Virus record (IMG/VR): IMGVR_UViG_3300032268_000124
Location: 1 to 35,417 of that record
Strand: one strand, 5' to 3'
DNA: 35,417 bases
DNA from: a virus
The position numbers and the translations under genes were made by a program. The notes below the pieces were generated by a model. The model worked only from the letters and a program-made list of their open reading frames with translations, did no database searches and was not told the origin of the DNA. Positions 13,971-30,161 of the stretch are shown in pieces; within the stretch, counting starts at the first letter, position 1, and each line of letters begins with the position of its first letter.

Positions 13971-14732
13971 ATGGCAGCCTATGGTCTTGGCCCGTATGGA
14001 CAAGGGAACTATTCCTATGGCGTAAGCCTTGGGGCAGCAACCTTTGCCGCATCTAGCACTGCGGCAGTTGACGCAAAACGCATCTGCATAGGTGCGTTTT
14101 CTGTTTCTGCCTCTAGCACAGAGACAGTCAGCGCCAATGTCGTTAAGACGGCCTCATTTTCGGTTTCAGCGTCTAGCAGTGCATCAGCTGCTGCACAACG
14201 CATTGCCATTGCATCGGCCACGGCCTCTAGCACCAGCTCCATGGCCACAAGCGCCTTGCGCTATGCCATAGGTGCATCGACATTCGCGGCAAGCTCTAGC
14301 GCCAGCTTTGCGGCCAGACGGGTGGCCATTGGTGCATTCACATCCACTGACACAAGCACCATGTCTGTCAATGGTGTCAGAGTCCCACTCATTCAAATCC
14401 TGATTGAAGACTTTGCCACGATGACTGTGGCCACCAGCGTGATCGTTAACCAGGCGGTGCTGATACAGGCTCAGTCTGGCATGAGCATCAGCGCGACTAG
14501 AAGACAAAGCGCTGCCATCAATTTCACTTGCCAGTCATCCATGACGATTGCCGGCAATCTAAAATGGGTGGTAGAGAGTGATACGGCAGAAACATGGAAT
14601 GCGATCTCTGACAATGCAGAGACTTGGACACCGATCACAGACACATCAGAAACATGGGATGCAATTGCTGACAGCAGTGAAACTTGGACTGCAATTGCGG
14701 ATAATAGCGAAACTTGGCAAATAGCCGCATAG
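13971..14732 (+). CDS. Repetitive Ala/Ser-rich virion protein with ETW tandem repeats
   Basis: This 253-residue protein has no recognised family. After a short [14 protein letters not shown] start, the first half repeats a roughly 24-residue unit resembling xFxASSxxxxxxAxRxxIGA about five times. The last 48 residues repeat a ten-residue ETWxxIxDxx unit. Low-complexity beta-repeat architecture and the position between gp80-like and S74 tail fibre genes suggest a fibre, decoration or adhesion role. There is no signal peptide or membrane segment. The similar N-terminal GLG.YG motif occurs in other phage fibre proteins. Confidence 0.7.
14589..14732 (+). repeat. Tandem 30-base coding repeat (ETW motif)
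   Basis: Four complete 30-base units (14589, 14619, 14649, 14679) and one partial unit (14709) encode ETW followed by a variable seven residues. The units differ at many positions, so it is an old or selected repeat rather than a recent slippage array. Confidence 0.85.
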
Positions 14733-14740
14733 GGGTAAAT

Positions 14741-16447
14741 ATGGCAGATACAACCACAACGAATCTATTACTGACGAAACCAGAGGTCGGTGCATCCACT
14801 GATACCTGGGGAACGAAAGTCAATACAGACTTAGACTTGATTGACGCATTGTTTGATGCAGGCCCAGTGCTAAAGGTCGCAAAGGGTGGCACGGGTGTCG
14901 GCACAAGCACAGGCTCTGGCAACAATGTATTGTCAACAAGCCCGACATTGGTGACACCGGCCCTTGGGACACCAAGCGCATTGGTGGGAACGAACATAAC
15001 AGGCACAGCAGCCAACTTCAACATCAATGGTACTGTGGGTGCTACAACGGCTTCTACTGGTGCGTTTACAACCCTAACAACATCTTCTACAGTTACACAC
15101 AATGGTGGAACAGCCAACGGAGTAACCTATCTCAATGGTTCAAAGGTTCTGACAAGTGGCTCTGCGCTAGTGTTTGATGGTACTAATTTGGGTGTGGGAG
15201 TTACTCCGAGTGCTTGGGCGACATTAACAGCATTGCAAATTAAAAATGGCTTTATAGCCGGTCTTAATAATCGTGTTTATGTTGGTGCAAACAATTATTA
15301 CGATGGTTCAAATGCCAGATACATAGCCACAGATTTTGCAACAAGATACTTTCAAAATGCAGGTCAGCATATTTGGGAAACAGCCCCATCAGGCACAGCA
15401 GGGGGTGCTGTCACCTTTACTCAGGCGATGACTCTGGATGCAAGTGGGAATTTAGGTATTGGTACAACTTCGCCTAGTAGTAAACTATCTGTAAATAGTG
15501 GCTCAACACAAACTGCTGTTAATTTTACTAGCACATCAACTGCCGTATTTTTTGCTCTTGTAAATTCTGGGTCACAAACTTTTATTGGTAACGACTCAAC
15601 AAGTGGTTCGTTTGTTGTTCAAACACCATCTGGCGGTTACAGCACAAAACTTATTGTTGATAACTCGGGCAATGTAGGTATTGGTAATAGTTCGCCATCT
15701 GCAAAACTTGATATAACTTCTTCAGGACAATTGCTTGCTAACTTTAATAGCACAAACGCATCTGCTGGATATATTCAATTTCAATCAAGCACTACAAATT
15801 ACGGCTATGCAGGTTCAGCAGCAACACTAAGTAGTGGAAGTTCAACTGACTTTGCAATTAGGTCACAAAACAACTTAGTTTTTACAAGTGGTGGTGGCTC
15901 AGAACGAGCCAGAATAGACTCTAGCGGTAACTTTCTGGTGGGGACTACGAGTGCTTTTGTAAGTTCAAAAGTATCAGTTTCTACTGATGGGGCAAATGGT
16001 GTTGCAAGCACACAAGCAACTGCTGGTGGTTATTGTTTTAGAGCAAATGCATTAACCAATGGTGGTGTTTATTATTTATTTGCATTCACTGCAAACACAA
16101 GTGACGTAGGTTCAATTACATCAAACGGAACTACCACAACTTACGCTGTCACATCTGATTACAGATTAAAAACTGTTACTGGTGCTGTAACTGGACATGG
16201 CGCAAGAATTGATGCGCTTGAGCCTGTTGAGTACACATGGAACTCTGACGGCTCACGCACTCGTGGTTTCTTGGCTCACAAGTTTCAAGAAGTCTATGCT
16301 AATAGCGTTACGGGAACAAAAGACGCAGTAGATGCGGATGGAAAACCAAAATATCAACAAATGCAAGCAAGCACTTCAGAAGTCATTGCAGACCTTGTTG
16401 CTGAAATTCAATCACTACGTCAGCGTCTTTCTGCCGCTAATCTTTAA
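14741..16447 (+). CDS. Tail fibre/spike with C-terminal S74 intramolecular chaperone domain
   Basis: ATG 14741 with AGGGG upstream is chosen; the frame is open back to 14714. This 568-residue protein starts with [21 protein letters not shown], in pieces, a virion-attachment module. It continues with GGTG and repeated [28 protein letters not shown] beta-helix-like units. The end is a peptidase S74 domain with [18 protein letters not shown] and [11 protein letters not shown], which trimerises the fibre and then cuts itself off in related proteins. This is the likely receptor-binding protein. The stretch from about 15.2 kb to the stop is visibly richer in A and T than its neighbours, consistent with exchange of the host-range module. 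Confidence 0.88.
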
Positions 16448-22208: not shown

Positions 22209-23687
22209 ATGTACTTACCACTCAAATTACCCCCAGGCATTTATAGAAACGGCACTGAGTACCAGGCAGCAGGCCGGTGGTATGACGCAAATCTTGTGCG
22301 CTGGTATGAGAACACTTTGCGGCCCATGGGTGGCTGGAGAAAACGTGCTTCTGGCCAGATGTCTGGTCTTTGCCGAGGCTTTATTACTTGGCGCGATAAC
22401 AGTGCCAACCGATGGATTGCTGCTGGAACGCACACAAAGCTCTATGCCATGAATGAGGCTGGAACACTCAAAGAAATCACGCCCACTGGCTTCACAGCTG
22501 GCATTGCGGATTCATTGTCAAAGACCGGCTATGGCTACAGCACCTATGGCACTCTGGCCTATGGCACGGCACGACCAGACACTGGCTTGATCACCCCAGC
22601 CACCACATGGTCCATGGACACATGGGGCGAGTATTTGATTGCTTGCTCCAATGCCGATGGCAAAATATATGAGTGGCAATTAGGCTTCACAACCCCCACA
22701 TTGGCAGCGGCAATCACCAATGCCCCAACGAGTAACAAGGCTATTTTGGTGACTGCCGAGCGAATTCTGTTTGCCCTTGGCGCTGGTGGAAACCCACGCA
22801 AAGTGCAGTGGTGCGACCAAGAAAACAATACCCTTTGGACACCAGCTGGCGACAATCAGGCAGGCGACTATGAGCTGGCCACGCCTGGCACACTTTTGGC
22901 CGGTAAGCGCGTTAAGGGTGTAAACCTACTGTTTACAGATGTCGATGTCCACACGGCCCAGTATGTTGGCGCTCCATTTGTCTATGGCTTTGAGAAGGCT
23001 GGCTCTGGCTGCGGTCTCATTTCAGCCCAAGCGGTGGCGGCCATTGACACTGCTGCCATTTGGATGAGCAAGTCTGGCTTTTGGATTTATGACGGCTATG
23101 TCAAGCCACTGCCAAGCGATGTGTCGGACTATGTCTTTGGCAATATCAACTTTAACCAGGCATCCAAAGTCTATGCGGTCCATAACAGTAAGTTTGGTGA
23201 AATCTGGTGGTATTACCCAAGCAGTGGAAGTAATGAGAATGACAGTTATGTCACCTATAACTACAGAGAAAACCACTGGAACATAGGCACATTGGCCAGA
23301 ACTGCCGGCACTGATGCTGGCGTGTTTGCCAACCCCTTGGCCGTTTCAACTGACGGGTTTATCTACGAGCATGAGGTCGGTTTTGCTTATGACAGCGCCA
23401 GTCTTTATGCCGAGTCTGGCCCAGTGCAATTGGGCAATGGCGACAACATCATGTCTGTCAGGCAAGTGGTCCCAGATGAGCAGACCTTGGGTGAGGCGGT
23501 GGTTTCATTCAAAACCCGTAATTACCCCACAGGCACACAATCCACATTTGGACCCTATACGGCAGCCAACCCGACTGATGTCCGGTTTGCAGCGCGCCAG
23601 GTCAACATGAAGGTGACTGGCAACACTTTGGCCGACTGGCGAATTGGGGTGATGCGGCTTGATGCAGTCCCAAGTGGTAAGCGATGA
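22209..23687 (+). CDS. Tail nozzle/DNA stabilisation-like beta-propeller protein
   Basis: This 492-residue protein begins with a LPPGIYRNGTEYQAAGRWYDANLV stretch (in pieces), typical of phage tail nozzle or packaged-DNA stabilisation proteins (P22 gp10-like). It then shows repeated Trp/Tyr-rich blade motifs such as WIAAGTHTKLYAMN and YLIACSNADGKIYEW that fit a beta-propeller. It should join the adaptor ring and close the head. Sequence identity to P22 gp10 is not something I can measure here. It directly follows the jelly-roll protein and shares four bases with the next gene. Confidence 0.75.
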   Translation: MYLPLKLPPGIYRNGTEYQAAGRWYDANLVRWYENTLRPMGGWRKRASGQMSGLCRGFITWRDNSANRWIAAGTHTKLYAMNEAGTLKEITPTGFTAGIADSLSKTGYGYSTYGTLAYGTARPDTGLITPATTWSMDTWGEYLIACSNADGKIYEWQLGFTTPTLAAAITNAPTSNKAILVTAERILFALGAGGNPRKVQWCDQENNTLWTPAGDNQAGDYELATPGTLLAGKRVKGVNLLFTDVDVHTAQYVGAPFVYGFEKAGSGCGLISAQAVAAIDTAAIWMSKSGFWIYDGYVKPLPSDVSDYVFGNINFNQASKVYAVHNSKFGEIWWYYPSSGSNENDSYVTYNYRENHWNIGTLARTAGTDAGVFANPLAVSTDGFIYEHEVGFAYDSASLYAESGPVQLGNGDNIMSVRQVVPDEQTLGEAVVSFKTRNYPTGTQSTFGPYTAANPTDVRFAARQVNMKVTGNTLADWRIGVMRLDAVPSGKR

Positions 23688-24052
23688 GTGACCAAGAACA
23701 TTTGGATAGGCTACGCCACCATGTGGAGGCTGCCTTAGAATACAGTGGAGGCACACATAATTTTGACGATGTCGCTGAGATGGTCGGAGATCACAGATTA
23801 CAGCTGTGGCCAGCCAAAGACTCGGTGGTATTGACAGAGATCATTGTCTACCCACAGTTAAAGAATTTGCACTATTTTCTGGCTGGTGGCGACCTAGATG
23901 AACTCTCAAGGATGCGACCATTGATCGAATCCTGGGGCAAGTCAATTGGTTGCACCAGGGTGACTTTGGCAGGCCGAAGAGGCTGGGCAAAGACATTTTT
24001 AAAAGATGAAGGTTACAGCCCACAATGGACTGTAATGGCAAAGGATTTATAG
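23684..24052 (+). CDS. GNAT-like acetyltransferase-type small protein
   Basis: This 122-residue protein has a shortened GNAT-like pattern: EIIVYPQLKNLHYFLAGGDL, then PLIESWGKSIGCTRVTLAGR followed by GWAKTFLKDEGY. The acetyl-CoA loop is not clearly complete, so it may be a non-catalytic virion-region homologue. Similar proteins occur between tail genes of aquatic phages. The start overlaps the previous stop (ATGA). Confidence 0.65.
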   Translation: MSDQEHLDRLRHHVEAALEYSGGTHNFDDVAEMVGDHRLQLWPAKDSVVLTEIIVYPQLKNLHYFLAGGDLDELSRMRPLIESWGKSIGCTRVTLAGRRGWAKTFLKDEGYSPQWTVMAKDL

Positions 24053-24061
24053 GGGAAAAAC

Positions 24062-25381
24062 ATGGCTACTGTGCAAGAGTTATATCAACAAATTCTAGGC
24101 CGCGAACCAGAGCCAGCTGGCTTGCTTTATTGGGAAAACCAATTTGGTGGTCAAGTTGATCCAGCAGAAGTGGAAAGATTTCAAGCGGCTGCGGCCTCTG
24201 AATTAGCGCAACGACAAGCGGAATCTGCTGCTGCTTCAAATGCGGCTGCTCCTGTCTCTAGCGGTGGCGCTGCTGCAAATGTTGAGGCTTTGTACGAGTC
24301 ACAACTTGGAAGGGCTCCTGACCCTGGTGGCCTTGCTTATTGGACCAATAAATTTGGGAATGAAATTGATGCCAATGAGGCAGCCCAATTTCAAGCAGCT
24401 GCTGCAAGAGAATTAGCTCAAAGATCAAGCCAACAAGCTGTCGAGGCTTTATATGCGTCACAACTTGGAAGGGCTTCTGATCCAAGCGGTCTTGCCTACT
24501 GGACCAATAGATTTGGCAGTGATATTGATGCCAATGAATTGGCAGAATTTCAAGCGGCTGCTGCAAGAGAAGTAGCAGCCAGAACAGCCAGTGCTGTTGT
24601 GCAGCCTCCGCGAGTAACAACGCCACCACCAAGACCAGTAACACCAACACCAACACCAACACCAACACCAACACCGCGAGTGACAGCACCACCACCAGGA
24701 ACACCACCACCAGGAACACTACCACCACCAACGCGAGTGACGCAACCACCAGTATATTCGGGTGGTACTGGCGGCACATTTATTGGCGGTGGAAGCCCAG
24801 GCTATACAAGTTTTATGCCGTTTTCAAATGCAGGCCAAGGTCTTGCTGAAAATTTTGCAAACTACCAGTCAATTCCAATTGGCTCGCAATACAACCCAGG
24901 AGTGACTGCTGGCGGTTTTTCCCCATACGAGCAAGTCATGGGCCAGATGAGACCACTTGGCAACCCATACGCAAATGTCATGGCAGGCCAAGCAATGGGT
25001 GGCTATGACCCTGCTTTGTATGACCAAATTCTTGCGAATAATGCGGCAAGAGCTGTGGCTGCAAATGCCAACATGACTTTGGCCGACTACTATGCCGGTG
25101 GCGGTGGTGGCGACAGTGGCGATGGTGGTGGTGGTGGTGATGGCAATACTGGCGGTGGACCAGGCACTGGCGCTGCTGGTGATGCGGCATTTGCCAAAGG
25201 TGGCATAGTGCGCAATTTGCTTGGTCCTAATCCCCCTGGCCCTGATGATGGTGCTGGATATTTACAAAATGGAGAATATGTGATCAAGAAGTCTTCAGTC
25301 AACAAGTATGGCCGTGGACTTCTGGACATGATCAACGAAGGCAAAGTGCCTGCCAAGAAAATGAAATCTTTACTCGGATAA
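24062..25381 (+). CDS. Virion protein with three DUF4214-like repeats and a Pro/Thr linker
   Basis: The 439-residue protein has three DUF4214-like units (about 3-52, 73-122, 126-174), each with an LGRxPDPxGLxYWxxxFG core followed by an Ala-rich helix. A Pro/Thr low-complexity linker follows (about 183-225), then a Gly-rich region (about 340-370). The C-terminus is GEYVIKKSSVNKYGRGLLDMI, similar to ends seen in phage ejection or internal virion proteins. It has a strong AGGGGAAAAAC ribosome site. Placement at the head of the ejection-type genes suggests a structural or ejected role. DUF4214 is more often in surface or secreted bacterial proteins, so its use here may aid binding to cell surface or sugars. 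Confidence 0.7.
   Translation: MATVQELYQQILGREPEPAGLLYWENQFGGQVDPAEVERFQAAAASELAQRQAESAAASNAAAPVSSGGAAANVEALYESQLGRAPDPGGLAYWTNKFGNEIDANEAAQFQAAAARELAQRSSQQAVEALYASQLGRASDPSGLAYWTNRFGSDIDANELAEFQAAAAREVAARTASAVVQPPRVTTPPPRPVTPTPTPTPTPTPRVTAPPPGTPPPGTLPPPTRVTQPPVYSGGTGGTFIGGGSPGYTSFMPFSNAGQGLAENFANYQSIPIGSQYNPGVTAGGFSPYEQVMGQMRPLGNPYANVMAGQAMGGYDPALYDQILANNAARAVAANANMTLADYYAGGGGGDSGDGGGGGDGNTGGGPGTGAAGDAAFAKGGIVRNLLGPNPPGPDDGAGYLQNGEYVIKKSSVNKYGRGLLDMINEGKVPAKKMKSLLG
24281..24583 (+). repeat. Two near-identical DUF4214 coding repeats
   Basis: Units at about 24281-24424 and 24440-24583 share most bases, with the conserved LGRAxDPxGLAYWTN core; the earlier unit near 24068 is more diverged. Recent duplication of one 48-codon module is likely. 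Confidence 0.75.
24641..24676 (+). repeat. ACACCA hexamer tandem repeat
   Basis: Five copies of ACACCA and a sixth ending in G encode the TPTP linker of the DUF4214 protein. A multiple of six bases keeps the frame, so slippage would change linker length only. Confidence 0.85.
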
Positions 25382-25390
25382 GGTGGCGAT

Positions 25391-26341
25391 ATGTCAAAAG
25401 GTGGAACAACAACCTCAACAAGCTCCATTGATCCACAGATCAAAGAAGCATTCTTGGCCAACTTTCAGCAAGCACAAAATGTTGCTGGCGCATTGCCGGT
25501 GCAGCAGTTTGCTGGATATAACCCAATATATCAGGCAGGCGAGGAAGCTCTGGTCAACACGGCCCTCGCTGGCCCAGGTATTACTGGCACAGACTTGGCC
25601 GCACAAATGGCGGCTTATGGCGGTATTTATCAGCCTGCACAGCTTACAGCGCAGCAGACCAATTTGGGCATGACTGGACCAGGGTCAATTGGCTCTTACA
25701 TGAATCCATATACAAGCATGGTGCGTGAAAACGCACTGGCTGATTTGGAGTCTGCAAGACGCGCTGCCATTCAGCAGACTGGTGAACGCGCCACACAAGC
25801 CCGTGCTTTTGGTGGATCACGCCAAGGTGTGGCCGAGGCTCTGACTAACCAAGGGTTTGCCAAGCAGGCTGCCAACCTTGGGACAACTTTGAATGAGCAG
25901 GCATTTAACCAGGCCATGGCCATGCAGCAGGCCGACATTGGCCGCAGATCAGCAGCCGACATTGCCAATCAGCAAGCAGGCTTGCAAGGTGCGCAATTGC
26001 GATTAGGTGGTGCAAGCCAGCTAGGAAGTCTTGCTGCACAGCAACAAGCATTGCGTCTTGGTGGCGCTCAAGCGGTCATGGGTGCTGGCGGTGCGCGTCA
26101 GGCTTTGGACCAGCAACAAATGGATGCAATCCGAAACATTGGCTTGCAGCGTTTGGGTGTGGTCCAGTCATCTCTTGGTGCGCAGCCTGCCAACCTTGGC
26201 ATGGTGGCACAAACTCCATACAGCCAGAATGTGGGCGCTGGCGCTCTTGGTGGTGCATTGGCCGGTTCTCAATTGGCTGGCACTCTTGGTCTTACAGCTG
26301 GCACTGGTGCTGGCCTTGGCGCATTGCTTGGTCTGATCTAA
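25391..26341 (+). CDS. Ejection-type internal virion protein (Ala/Gln-rich)
   Basis: This 316-residue protein is rich in Ala, Gln and Gly, with the segments GSIGSYMNPYTSMVRENALAD, in pieces, and ERATQARAFGGSRQGVAEAL, which recur in phage proteins ejected with the DNA. The C-terminus is a Gly/Ala/Leu hydrophobic stretch (about 280-316) that may insert in or cross a membrane. It is the first of a run of four such genes, as in podovirus internal core operons. A clear AGGTGG ribosome site precedes it. Confidence 0.7.
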   Translation: MSKGGTTTSTSSIDPQIKEAFLANFQQAQNVAGALPVQQFAGYNPIYQAGEEALVNTALAGPGITGTDLAAQMAAYGGIYQPAQLTAQQTNLGMTGPGSIGSYMNPYTSMVRENALADLESARRAAIQQTGERATQARAFGGSRQGVAEALTNQGFAKQAANLGTTLNEQAFNQAMAMQQADIGRRSAADIANQQAGLQGAQLRLGGASQLGSLAAQQQALRLGGAQAVMGAGGARQALDQQQMDAIRNIGLQRLGVVQSSLGAQPANLGMVAQTPYSQNVGAGALGGALAGSQLAGTLGLTAGTGAGLGALLGLI

Positions 26342-26342
26342 T

Positions 26343-26792
26343 ATGCCCAACAACCCAACACCAGAGCCACAACGCTACGCTAACGCGCAGCTCATGGCTT
26401 TGCTTGATCCCTCAAGCAAGCGTGACACCATCCTGATCACGCCTGGATCACCGATGCCGTCTCGCATCCCTGATGGGCTGACAGTGGCTGAGACAAGCCG
26501 AGGCATTGTGATCACCAGTGACCCAGCAAAGGTCAAGATCATTGACCAAGGGTCTGAGAAAGATGTGGGCATGGCGCTGTTTGGCTATGCATACGATCAG
26601 GCCAAAGGCTTTGACAATGTGGCGGTGGCCATGGATAAAAACAGAACACCGGTGGCAGAACTGGCCATCAAGCCTGGTCAAGAAAGACGGGCCATGAGGG
26701 CTGCGTCTTTGCTTGCACCAGATACAGGATCAACTAACATGATGAGCAGAGGCGATGTGGTCAACACCCGTCTCAAAGGTTTATTGGATTAA
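26343..26792 (+). CDS. Hypothetical virion-cluster protein (149 aa)
   Basis: No family is recognised. The protein starts with a short Pro/Asn segment, then an alpha/beta-looking region with TPGSPMPSRIPDGLTVAETS and a helical C-terminus. It is flanked by ejection-type genes and begins one base after the previous stop, so it is co-transcribed with them and may be a chaperone or a component of that complex. Confidence 0.65.
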   Translation: MPNNPTPEPQRYANAQLMALLDPSSKRDTILITPGSPMPSRIPDGLTVAETSRGIVITSDPAKVKIIDQGSEKDVGMALFGYAYDQAKGFDNVAVAMDKNRTPVAELAIKPGQERRAMRAASLLAPDTGSTNMMSRGDVVNTRLKGLLD

Positions 26793-26801
26793 GGTGGAAA
26801 T

Positions 26802-28340
26802 ATGGCTACTCAATTTGATTTTGCAAGTTTAGGCAATATATTTGGTGGGATGCCTGGTGCAACACCAACGGGTCTTGACGCATTGCTGACAGAAGATCAG
26901 CGTAAGCTCTTGGGCCGTAATGCTGCACTGTCAGCAGCCGGTGCATTGCTCCAAGCCAGTGGCCGAAGTGCAGTCCCTATCAGCATGGGCCAAGCGCTTG
27001 GATCAGCTTTGCAGGCTGGCCAGCAAGGTTATCAGCAGGCTAGAGCTGGCTCTTTGCAAGATTTGCTTTTGGGTGCAAAACTTAAAGAGATGCAAACAGC
27101 CCAAGATTTGCAAAAGCAAGTCGCTGGGGTATTGACTGGTCCTGCACCAACTGTATTGAGTCCAGAGATGCAAGCCTTGGCTGCGCCTGGTATGCAAGCT
27201 GGCCCAACTATGGCCCGTGCAGAACTGGCCTCAAATATTCCACAGCCAAGTGCCAATGAAATTAAGGCTGCCCAATACCAGAGGATTGCAGACATTTATG
27301 CAGCAGCTGGCAAAGGTGAAGACGCAAAGCGCTATCAAGACATTGCCAGAGATTTAAACCCAAGGGCTGAAGTTGTTGGCCAGCCATTTGAGGTGACTGA
27401 CCCCAAAGGCAATCCCATCTTGGTCCAGCAATATAAGTCTGGTGACATCAAGACAATGCAAGGCTTTGGTCCAAAGCGCGATGTCGTCTTGCAGAATCTT
27501 GGTGGTCAGACTGTGGCTGTTAACAAGTCATCATTAAAAGGTGGCGAAACATTTGCCCAGACAATGACACCAAGCGAGATTGCAAATCTTGGTATTGCCA
27601 GAGCCAATTTAGGCGTGGCCCAGGCTGGCCTTGGCTTGCGTCAACAAGAATTTTTGCGTGGTGCTTATCAACTCAAAGAAACACCAGAAGGTCTGGCGTA
27701 TGTGCCAACTGCACCAGGTGGTGCGGCTATGCCAGTTATGACGGCAGCCGGAACACAACTTGAAGGTGCTGGCTCTAAGCCGACTGAAGATCAAAGCAAG
27801 TCAGCAGGCTTTGCATTCCGAATGAAACAGTCAACAAACATCTTCAATCAGCCTGCTGTGGATAAGTCTGGTGAGCCAATCATTGACCCCAAAACTGGCA
27901 AACCAGTTACGCTTGAGCAGGCTTATGGTCAGCCAGGGAAGTATCAGGCCATCATGCGCGCTATCCCAAGTGCTGGATTGACCACTGGCATTGCCAATAT
28001 TTCAGAAGATGTTGGTCGGCAGCAGTATCGTCAGGCCCAAGAAAATTGGGTCACTGCCAACTTGCGACCAGAGTCTGGTGCGGTGATTGGTGTGGAAGAG
28101 ATGGAGAAAGAGATCACTAAATATTTCCCACAAACTAGTGACAGTCAAAAAACTATTGAGCAAAAAGCCCGTGCTAGACGCGACACTGAACTGGCCATGA
28201 CTGTGCGCGCTGGTCCAGCCTATAAACAAATTGAAAAAGCAGTGGCTGCACGGAATGCCCCAATGGCCGCACCAACTGCTGGTGTGCCTAGACTTGTCAA
28301 AGACCCTGCGACCGGCATCTTTCGCTATGTAACGGAGTAA
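26802..28340 (+). CDS. Internal virion/ejection-type protein (512 aa)
   Basis: This protein has an Ala/Gln-rich N-terminal helical half (about 30-330) and a conserved C-terminal block with QYRQAQENWVTANLRPESGA and EMEKEITKYFPQTSDS, which recurs in phage internal virion proteins. It is probably ejected with the genome. No catalytic motif such as a transglycosylase Glu signature is clear. An AGGTGGAAAT ribosome site supports the start. Confidence 0.7.
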   Translation: MATQFDFASLGNIFGGMPGATPTGLDALLTEDQRKLLGRNAALSAAGALLQASGRSAVPISMGQALGSALQAGQQGYQQARAGSLQDLLLGAKLKEMQTAQDLQKQVAGVLTGPAPTVLSPEMQALAAPGMQAGPTMARAELASNIPQPSANEIKAAQYQRIADIYAAAGKGEDAKRYQDIARDLNPRAEVVGQPFEVTDPKGNPILVQQYKSGDIKTMQGFGPKRDVVLQNLGGQTVAVNKSSLKGGETFAQTMTPSEIANLGIARANLGVAQAGLGLRQQEFLRGAYQLKETPEGLAYVPTAPGGAAMPVMTAAGTQLEGAGSKPTEDQSKSAGFAFRMKQSTNIFNQPAVDKSGEPIIDPKTGKPVTLEQAYGQPGKYQAIMRAIPSAGLTTGIANISEDVGRQQYRQAQENWVTANLRPESGAVIGVEEMEKEITKYFPQTSDSQKTIEQKARARRDTELAMTVRAGPAYKQIEKAVAARNAPMAAPTAGVPRLVKDPATGIFRYVTE

Positions 28341-28343
28341 AAA

Positions 28344-30161
28344 ATGGCAGACAAAATTGTTCAAATCCCAAATATTGGGCCAGTGTCTTTCCCAGAAAGC
28401 ATGACTGATGAGCAGATCATCAAGGCTATTCAATCATTGCAAGTGCCAGCTGCTGCACCAATTACTGCCCCAGCGCCAACTGGCAAAGCCCCAGAGTATT
28501 TTGGAGCCAAAATTCTAAATTCACCAGTGGGTGGTGTCATTCGCGGTTTGCGTGATATTCCAGACGCTGGCGCTCAACTGCTGACTCGCGGCCTAGAAGC
28601 TATTTCCCCAGCAGGCTCAAGTCTTGAGCAATTTGCCCAAGCAGAGCGCAAAAGGGTTGAAGATATCAATCGTCAGGCTGAACTGGATTACCAGAGAAAC
28701 ATTCGACAAGGTCAAATGCGTCAAGGTGAAATTGATGTAGGCCGAGTCATAGGCAACATTGCAGGCACATTGATCCCATCAACCGCTGCTGTGCGCGTAC
28801 TTGGTGCAACCACTGCCCCAGTACGGGCCGGAGCAATTACTGGTGCAGTTGGTGGCGCTTTGCAACCCGTGGCCACAACGCCTGGCACAACAACGCCAGA
28901 ATTCTTTGCGCAAAAAGTTGAGCAAACTGGAGCAGGCACAGCATTTGGTGCAGGCGCTGGATATCTTGGCGGTAAGTTATCCGACATTCTGTTTGGCGCT
29001 AAACCACCAGCCATGCCAATGCCTGGACAACCAGGTATTGGTGGCGCTCAAGTCAATGTGACCACAACGCCCACAGCTACAGTCACTGGTGGTGGCATGA
29101 CTCCTGGTGTTGTTGGGCCAGATGTATCAGCTGGATTGACCTCGGCCCAGCAAGCCATTCTTGGCCGTGGCAAGGAAATGGGATTCAGAACAACGCCTGG
29201 TCAAGAAACTGGCTCTAGGTCTTTGCAGCAGATGGAAGCTCGAATGGAATCAAGCCCATTTACTTCTGGACCATTTAACGCAATTAAAGATGCAAACCAA
29301 AAGATTCTTAATCGATCTACAGCGCAAGCCATTGGTGTCAATTCTGATGAATTAAGCAATCCAGTCTTAGCCCAGGCACAAAGACAGATCAGCAATGTTT
29401 ACAAACAAGTGGCCAGCCCAGAAGTCAAAAAGCTAGATGGCAACACTATCCAGACTGGTATTGAGCTGGTCGATAACGCATTTGAAGGTCTGACAACTCA
29501 GCCCCTCAAATCAAATATCTTTGTTAAGCAACTGCAAGACTTGGCGGCCAAGGGTGAAGCTAGTGGCAATCAATTGCAGACCTTGTCATCAAAGATCGGT
29601 AAACGTGCCAAAAACGAAATGACCACAGCAATGGGTGATCGTGAGCTTGGCAGCGCTTTATTCCAATTGAAAGAAATGGTAGATGATGCCTTGGCCCAAG
29701 GTTTGTCTAAAGAGCAGCAGGCGGCATTTCAGCTGGCCCGCGCCAACTATCGCAACTTGATGACCATCAGGTCCAATCAAGGTGTGGTCAATCCATCGAC
29801 CGGCAATGTGTCAGGCTTGAATTTGGCCAGTGCATTGACTCGCAAAGACCCACAAGGCTTTGTGTTTGGCTCTAACCAGACACCAATGTATGAGGCCGCT
29901 AGATTTGCCCAAGCATTTAAGCCAATTGTTGGCGACTCTGGAACGGCCACAAGGTCCATGGAAGTCAGCCCATTAAGCATGATGTTGGCCGCGCCAACTA
30001 ATATTGCAGCCCGTGCCTATACGGCCCAGCCAACTGCCAACTTAGCAGCGAGAATGCAGACTGGTGTTGCACCAGGCACTGATGCGGCCACACAAGAACT
30101 CTTGAAAAAGATGTTTCCGACAACTGGTGCAGCCGGTTTGATCAGTCTATTGAGCCAATAA
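28344..30161 (+). CDS. Large ejection-type virion protein (605 aa)
   Basis: The 605-residue product has a short N-terminal domain resembling a small phage module (PVSFPESMTDEQIIKAIQSL), then a Gly/Ala-rich hydrophobic region (about 130-220, with GNIAGTLIPSTAAVRVLGA and GAGYLGGKLSDILFG) that could span membranes, then long helices. Such layouts are found in proteins ejected to carry DNA through the host envelope. It is the last plus-strand structural gene, ending at a shared hairpin. A strong AACGGAG ribosome site precedes it. Confidence 0.7.
   Translation: MADKIVQIPNIGPVSFPESMTDEQIIKAIQSLQVPAAAPITAPAPTGKAPEYFGAKILNSPVGGVIRGLRDIPDAGAQLLTRGLEAISPAGSSLEQFAQAERKRVEDINRQAELDYQRNIRQGQMRQGEIDVGRVIGNIAGTLIPSTAAVRVLGATTAPVRAGAITGAVGGALQPVATTPGTTTPEFFAQKVEQTGAGTAFGAGAGYLGGKLSDILFGAKPPAMPMPGQPGIGGAQVNVTTTPTATVTGGGMTPGVVGPDVSAGLTSAQQAILGRGKEMGFRTTPGQETGSRSLQQMEARMESSPFTSGPFNAIKDANQKILNRSTAQAIGVNSDELSNPVLAQAQRQISNVYKQVASPEVKKLDGNTIQTGIELVDNAFEGLTTQPLKSNIFVKQLQDLAAKGEASGNQLQTLSSKIGKRAKNEMTTAMGDRELGSALFQLKEMVDDALAQGLSKEQQAAFQLARANYRNLMTIRSNQGVVNPSTGNVSGLNLASALTRKDPQGFVFGSNQTPMYEAARFAQAFKPIVGDSGTATRSMEVSPLSMMLAAPTNIAARAYTAQPTANLAARMQTGVAPGTDAATQELLKKMFPTTGAAGLISLLSQ

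Follow-up and report, generated by a model that had tools for sequence, protein, structure and literature searches.

The gene studied here (hereafter the slot gene; Table 1) lies in the window, by which we mean the whole virus record of 35,417 bases. It encodes a protein in which a C-terminal domain kept among relatives is joined to an N-terminus that is exchanged between them as entire modules. The anatomy of this protein and the exchange of its N-terminal modules are well supported, and its function is only moderately supported. Altogether, the data suggest an exchangeable attachment part that is used in DNA delivery by a freshwater-type phage.

Table 1. Features of the slot gene and its neighbourhood in the window
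Feature	Position	Strand	Residues	Remark
gp10-like tail stabilization protein gene (phrog_3287)	22209..23687	+		upstream landmark
Acetyltransferase-like gene (phrog_22172)	23684..24052	+		name from annotated homologues
Slot gene	24062..25381	+	439 aa	three DUF4214 units, Pro/Thr linker, conserved C-terminal domain
DUF4214 unit 1	24068..24217	+	3-52	Pfam; three helices in low-confidence model
DUF4214 unit 2	24278..24427	+	73-122	Pfam
DUF4214 unit 3	24437..24586	+	126-175	Pfam; 38/50 identical to unit 2
(AACACC)6, in-frame microsatellite	24640..24675	+		codes Thr-Pro repeats; 3 exact copies in L004
Conserved C-terminal domain	24818..25378	+	from 253	common to relatives with other N-terminal modules
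Gly-rich spacer	~25097..25180	+		within C-terminal domain; length varies in relatives
Near-invariant C-terminal motif GG..GPDDG..L..GEYVIKKSSVNKYG..LLDMINEGK	25190..25378	+		tape-measure-like
DNA-ejection-type gene (AFGGSR protein)	25391..26341	+	316 aa	homologue of phiM5_27
Downstream gene of ejection block	26802..28340	+		variable among relatives
Last gene of ejection block	28344..30161	+		one of at least 8 alternative versions in relatives

The open reading frame of the slot gene is real, starting with ATG at 24062, immediately 3' of GGGGA, and ending with a stop codon at 25379-25381. In a Pfam scan, the whole protein scored 70.8 bits for DUF4214 (PF13946) in three stretches, and the single units scored 26.3-27.2 bits each, all above the curated cut-off of 23.2 bits. 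Thus, the three copies of this domain recognized in the first-pass annotation are genuine. The units align at most to positions 17-57 of the 72-position model, which is about half of it, and both the N-terminal and the C-terminal parts of the model are unmatched. The identities between the units are 28/50 (1-2), 25/50 (1-3), and 38/50 (2-3). To call two of the copies nearly identical, as was done before, was overstated, because units 2 and 3 share only 76% of the amino acids and 79% of the nucleotides (119/150).

The predicted structure of the slot protein is of low confidence (mean pLDDT 47.5), with the DUF4214 units, modelled as three helices each, at ~58-70 and most of the remainder below 50. 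Neither the sequence (best E 0.17) nor the model (Foldseek; best E 1.6, no match at E 0.001) found a counterpart in the PDB. The Foldseek list consisted mostly of calmodulin-like EF hands with probabilities of 0.33 or less, and we do not take the protein for an EF hand. The best Z of the model in VIA-align was 4.8, the best E against a virus library in Foldseek was 0.0099, and the whole protein had no match at 1e-3 among phage records. The slot protein of the window has no predicted membrane segment (maximum 19-residue hydropathy of 0.71), and membrane-like segments were seen in 3 of the 8 distant slot proteins measured, namely those of DSL-LC04, Pag-Yong1, and RW (1.76-1.87).

The Thr-Pro linker that follows the repeats had been regarded as prone to slippage, and the number of its hexamers does vary, with 6 exact copies in the window and 3 in the 95%-identical L004. 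In 28 of the 92 slot genes among the relatives listed (see below), a unit of 6-18 nt is repeated in tandem in at least 3 exact copies, and no such array was found in the flanks (167,136 nt upstream and 76,758 nt downstream). The slot gene of L044 (from base 537 of that locus), which is of the C-C type, encodes a Gly-Thr dipeptide linker of more than 60 residues built of 12-nt units, and shorter versions of this linker are found in other relatives.

The Gly-rich region named previously is present in the C-terminal domain, and the description of this C-terminus as virion-type holds at the level of a motif. Residues 375-435 match a tape measure PHROG with an E of 3.9e-5, ~30 residues weakly match phage tape measure proteins (best E 2e-3), and the profile of the domain matches the Douge tape measure protein twice with 31.6 bits in total. 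In the alignment, the region contains the tape measure motif G.GTG.SD.IPA.L..GEYVI. This motif is internal in some tape measure proteins; in the Douge protein it occupies residues 962-1013 and 1412-1462, outside the modelled residues 1658-1699 (PMC13033339), so that the motif gives no proof of docking. By length and tail type, the slot protein is not a tape measure protein, being of 439 aa and neighboured by gp10-like and short-tail genes. The PHROGs listed for it were phrog_3547, 12558, and 13338 only, with no match to the phrog_4287 profile. Among bacterial genome contigs, 164 pattern matches to the C-terminal domain and 132 to the DUF4214 N-terminus were obtained, none of which was confirmed.

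The gp10-like protein of the window matches phrog_3287 at 289.8 bits and is 67% identical to that of phage ctjtQ328 and 35% to that of Sinorhizobium phage phiM5. The AFGGSR protein encoded next to the slot gene is homologous to phiM5_27 (34% over 149 residues, E 3e-12), which in turn matches phrog_4287, 'DNA ejection protein', at 306 bits; the AFGGSR protein itself gave no direct phrog_4287 match in the PHROG scan. By this homology, the assignment of the locus to an ejection-type gene block stands. In phiM5, MJing1, OH, and ctyzp037, there is no open frame between the acetyltransferase-like and ejection genes, and the slot gene is thus regarded as accessory. In ctjtQ328 (L086:11017-11673, MW202879), the same place is taken by an unannotated Gly-rich frame of up to 218 codons in which no tape measure motif was found.

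Downstream of the ejection gene, the window carries an accessory 149-aa gene (26343-26792) that was matched in 30 of the 91 relatives listed, some of whose loci end too early, and that is 93-99% identical where present. The gene that follows it was matched at 38-90% over segments of at least 100 aa in 61 of the 91 relatives listed, and the version of the last gene found in the window in 7 of 91 loci. The types of the last gene in near relatives measure 605, 618, 620, 639, 667, 679, 700, and 757 aa. As most of the downstream ejection genes vary as well, variation is not unique to the slot gene. The last gene is exchanged with no clear link to the class of the N-terminal module, and diversifying exchange therefore seems to act on the delivery block as a whole.

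A scan of viral contigs with the slot protein gave 242 relatives, of which the best 80 were used, and most of these align over residues 249-439 only. With the C-terminal alignment as query, 386 relatives were obtained, and again the best 80 were used. Of the 138 loci from both scans, 10 were excluded for lack of a match to the C-terminal regular expression; collapsing identical proteins then yielded 91 distinct proteins and, with that of the window, 92 slot proteins. Because the best 80 of 242 and the best 80 of 386 were used, the counts of architectures below are not population frequencies. Among these relatives listed, the C-terminal domain is kept in the 92 proteins and the N-termini display 12 architectures made of six module types, designated by letters (A, DUF4214; B and C, mutually related and HTH-like; D, NPDVAAAY type). 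The architectures are C (41 proteins), B-B-B (19), C-E (10), C-C-E (5), F-E-E (4), A-A-A (3), F-E (3), A-A (2), and D-D-D (2), with one protein each for D-D, C-C, and C-B. In BLASTP, residues 1-180 of the window protein match only L004, L005, L013, and L014 of the 91 relatives listed. The flanking genes are kept in the same relatives, the acetyltransferase-like gene being 89-98% and gp10 77-99% identical in 91/91, and the ejection gene 86-99% identical in the 78 relatives whose segments measure at least 200 aa.

The first-pass annotation had proposed that the repeat may vary in number and tune a putative binding to the cell surface or peptidoglycan. Its account of the anatomy, the setting, and the existence of such variation proved right, as the DUF4214 relatives carry 3 units (window, L004, and L005) or 2 (L013 and L014), but the main variation is the replacement of the entire N-terminus by other modules. 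In view of the 12 architectures, mere differences in copy number were rejected as the chief explanation. A diversity-generating retroelement was set aside only because whole modules are replaced.

In a tree of the upstream DNA (1,853 nt, 82 of the 92 rows, quick method), the class of module changes at least 20 times, the minimum being 6. Shuffled labels need 39.9 changes against the 20 in the real data, implying that the module class is partly inherited. DUF4214 appears at three places on this tree, each forced by starred branches. The rows nearest to the window, L021 and L046, both carry B-B-B. Compared with L021 by sliding identity, the window is 92-100% identical through gp10 and the acetyltransferase gene, collapses at the start codon of the slot gene to 28-34% in the modules, and returns to 84-90% in most of the ejection gene. 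Compared with L004, a block of 93-100% identity from ~23800 to 27500, with 84% in the linker, lies within surroundings of 69-89%, gp10 among them. The tree of the upstream DNA may also have been shaped by recombination; with or without it, the modules are not linked to the flanks.

The slot is older than the group of close relatives of the window. A scan of viral contigs with the DUF4214 units only recovered 25 loci, and a gp10-like gene stands just upstream in 24 of them, at a distance of 1,120 nt or less: in L004, L013, and L014, plus 21 of those numbered L163-L184 (22 loci). The remaining locus, L183, has DUF4214 outside the slot, with 1,591 nt upstream that contain no gp10-like gene. Among the L163-L184 loci, 15 extend for 500 nt or more downstream, and 11 of these have an ejection-type gene no more than 300 nt away; when L004, L013, and L014 are included, it is 14 of 18. 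In L181 it lies 998 nt downstream, and none was found within the available downstream DNA of L166, L173, and L183. These counts contain matches by construction, since the window, L084 (the L170 contig), and L085 (the L178 contig) supplied sequences for the gp10 and ejection profiles, and apparently also near-copies (L168/L169, L173/L174, L175/L176, and L179-L181). For scale, the gp10 of the window matches 45 of 50,697 phage records in tblastn, which is not a profile search. The gp10 proteins of L084 and L085 are only 25-31% identical to that of the window, and both contigs carry at the same gene place a DUF4214 slot protein (51.6 and 36.3 bits, respectively) ending in the DGEFV or GEYIM variant of the C-terminal motif.

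Several distant slot proteins mix modules, with B-A-D in L168 and L169 and A-D in L173, L174, and L179-L181. Slot proteins with the motif and other N-termini were identified in DSL-LC04, Pag-Yong1, 023Pt_psg01, HTVC023P, RW, and ctpbd312, and the arrangement of a gp10-like gene upstream and an ejection-type gene downstream recurs in named phages such as DSL-LC04, Pag-Yong1, and Caulobacter phage RW. The slot gene of HTVC023P stands one gene before the ejection gene, and a search with its product returned only itself. No close bacterial source of the modules was found in the bacterial contigs and plasmids searched: plasmid matches to the modules reached 34% only, and the D-module region had no match in plasmids. 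The B-A-D region had no match in phages. A DUF4214-rich frame with at least 5 units is found at L165:5759-8392, interrupted by a stop that lies between 6661 and 6665.

As to function, our preferred reading, to which we give slightly less than an even chance, is that the slot protein is an accessory and probably virion-borne protein of the ejection block of a P22/LUZ24-type podovirus, whose C-terminus docks and whose modules grip the host envelope. Its presence in the virion, its docking, and its ligand are inferred. The constant C-terminal domain would dock the protein to the tail or the ejection apparatus. As the phage adsorbs or delivers its genome, the N-terminal modules, tethered by flexible linkers, would hold on to a host envelope partner. 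The N-terminus, a tandem set of small and mostly acidic modules, is exchanged via recombination between the conserved flanking genes, and this exchange, together with the repeat number, would retune the fit to changing hosts. The link to the virion is that the phiM5 homologues of both flanking genes, phiM5_25 (gp10-like) and phiM5_27, are annotated as found in the particle proteome; phiM5, the source of that proteome, has no slot gene, a point against this reading. The link to the envelope is that DUF4214 of segmented filamentous bacteria has been described as a domain that probably anchors to the surface (PMC12780176); a study of Halomonas cites DUF4214 surface proteins thought to join the S-layer (PMC11970703). 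Against the envelope counts that 77 of the 92 slot proteins among the relatives listed bear HTH-like rather than surface-type modules.

Those HTH-like modules lead to the very unlikely alternative that the slot protein is a DNA pilot, in which the N-terminal modules bind the end of the phage genome and the protein enters the cell with it, DUF4214 being a functional stand-in for the HTH-like modules that would bind DNA. Module B, modelled from the B-B-B protein of L062, consists of four-helix HTH-like units (pLDDT ~80) that superpose on ParB-family DNA-binding domains in VIA-align with a best Z of 6.4 (rmsd 2.0-2.4 over 54-56 residues), although a Z below 8 may, according to the guidance for the tool, reflect only a common arrangement. 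HTH proteins dominate the VIA-align list for this module, and 2 of the 7 B/C-type proteins scanned exceed the Pfam cut-off of HTH_26 (22), at 23.4 (L102) and 25.4 (L049). On the other hand, the DUF4214, D, and F modules had no Pfam HTH match above cut-off, and the N-termini are net acidic in every architecture (medians of -2 to -12), which speaks against DNA binding; tandem-HTH DNA binding was rejected as the first choice for this reason. The last 45 residues of the slot proteins are basic (medians of +1 to +4).

The slot protein could instead be an assembly factor absent from the mature particle, which builds or loads the ejection proteins and binds the variable downstream proteins through its modules. 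We consider this unlikely: the neighbouring genes are morphogenesis genes and the downstream proteins are variable too, but the C-terminal motif is that of virion (tape measure) proteins, and module class and the type of the last gene are not clearly associated (p 0.066; mutual information with permutation, 46 of the 92 loci). A strict pairing of modules with the last ejection gene was rejected on the same value. The place among ejection genes, the rapid turnover of modules, as in arms races, and the small acidic domains would suit a protein injected with the DNA to counter host defences or regulate the host. We consider this role quite unlikely; the proteins scanned with Pfam and PHROGs matched no domain of an effector or enzyme already known. 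We put least credence in neutral drift, by which the N-terminus is a tolerated spacer whose modules are exchanged without selection. Low-complexity linkers, microsatellites, and the low-confidence structure are in its favour; identical module types nevertheless recur at the same slot in deeply diverged phages and as intact tandem units above the Pfam cut-off. The lengths of the tandem repeat units, among 4-21 nt, are multiples of three only, which also tells against drift, though any coding gene demands as much.

The slot protein resembles several known systems in part. The DUF4214 family is represented by three units above its curated cut-off, each covering about half of the model and lying in a phage ejection block, not in a bacterial surface protein. 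With the tape measure proteins of long-tailed phages, it shares the C-terminal motif of ~35-55 residues, and slot homologues are annotated as tail tape measure proteins in DSL-LC04 and Caulobacter phage GB2A; it differs in its short-tailed context, small size, lack of a predicted membrane segment, and variable N-terminus. With the ejection (internal virion) proteins of podoviruses, in which domain swapping is a known theme (PMC8954989) and whose genes are hard to place owing to divergence and mosaicism (PMC10386132), it shares the gene block, but the scans made gave no homology to phrog_4287, T7, or P22 ejection proteins. Tail fibres, which belong to the variable part of phage genomes in metaviromic islands (PMC3909814), likewise combine a constant end with an exchanged one, whereas the anchor of the slot protein is C-terminal and its variable part is N-terminal and made of small helical repeats. 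The 'DUF4214 domain-containing protein' A0A6J5QPN3 of an uncultured Caudovirales is a weak Foldseek match (E 0.012, probability 0.90) and has 997 aa against 439. DUF4214 phage proteins are thus already named in public databases; neither the slot protein nor any DUF4214 phage protein was described in the literature searched. Phage proteins with a constant and a variable part, and ejection proteins of mosaic build, are already known (PMC8954989, PMC10386132, PMC3909814); among them, the slot protein family with its set of modules appears to represent a new variant.

A broader proposal, which we regard as doubtful, is that several deep podovirus lineages possess a dedicated, previously unnamed ejection-block adaptor with a tape-measure-type C-terminus and an exchangeable N-terminus of helical modules, acting as a determinant of host range. 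If this were true, module exchange and microsatellite linkers would retune genome delivery to the host envelope, the determinant would be distinct from the tail fibre, and there would be a concrete cause for the hitherto unexplained variation that internal virion genes show in viromes. In environmental phages, the search for variable genes of host recognition usually turns to tail fibres, and a second exchangeable protein in the ejection block would mean that host range could be set at DNA delivery too. A metavirome study placed tape measure (3) and internal virion (3) genes in under-recruiting islands for reasons termed 'obscure', for which module exchange offers a testable explanation (PMC3909814). 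DUF4214, a domain with no known function, has a defined and nearly exclusive place in the phages recovered here (24/25 loci). Caulobacter phages are possible laboratory models of the slot gene, their own N-terminus not being DUF4214.

Separate from the slot gene, the window carries an S74-type tail fibre gene at 14714-16447, the product of which has the usual constant anchor and variable tip, its first ~55 residues being 85% identical to ctjtQ328 and the remainder unaligned. A 30-nt tandem repeat (2.3 copies, 79%) at 14649-14717 lies at the end of the preceding gene and overlaps the listed start of the tail fibre gene.
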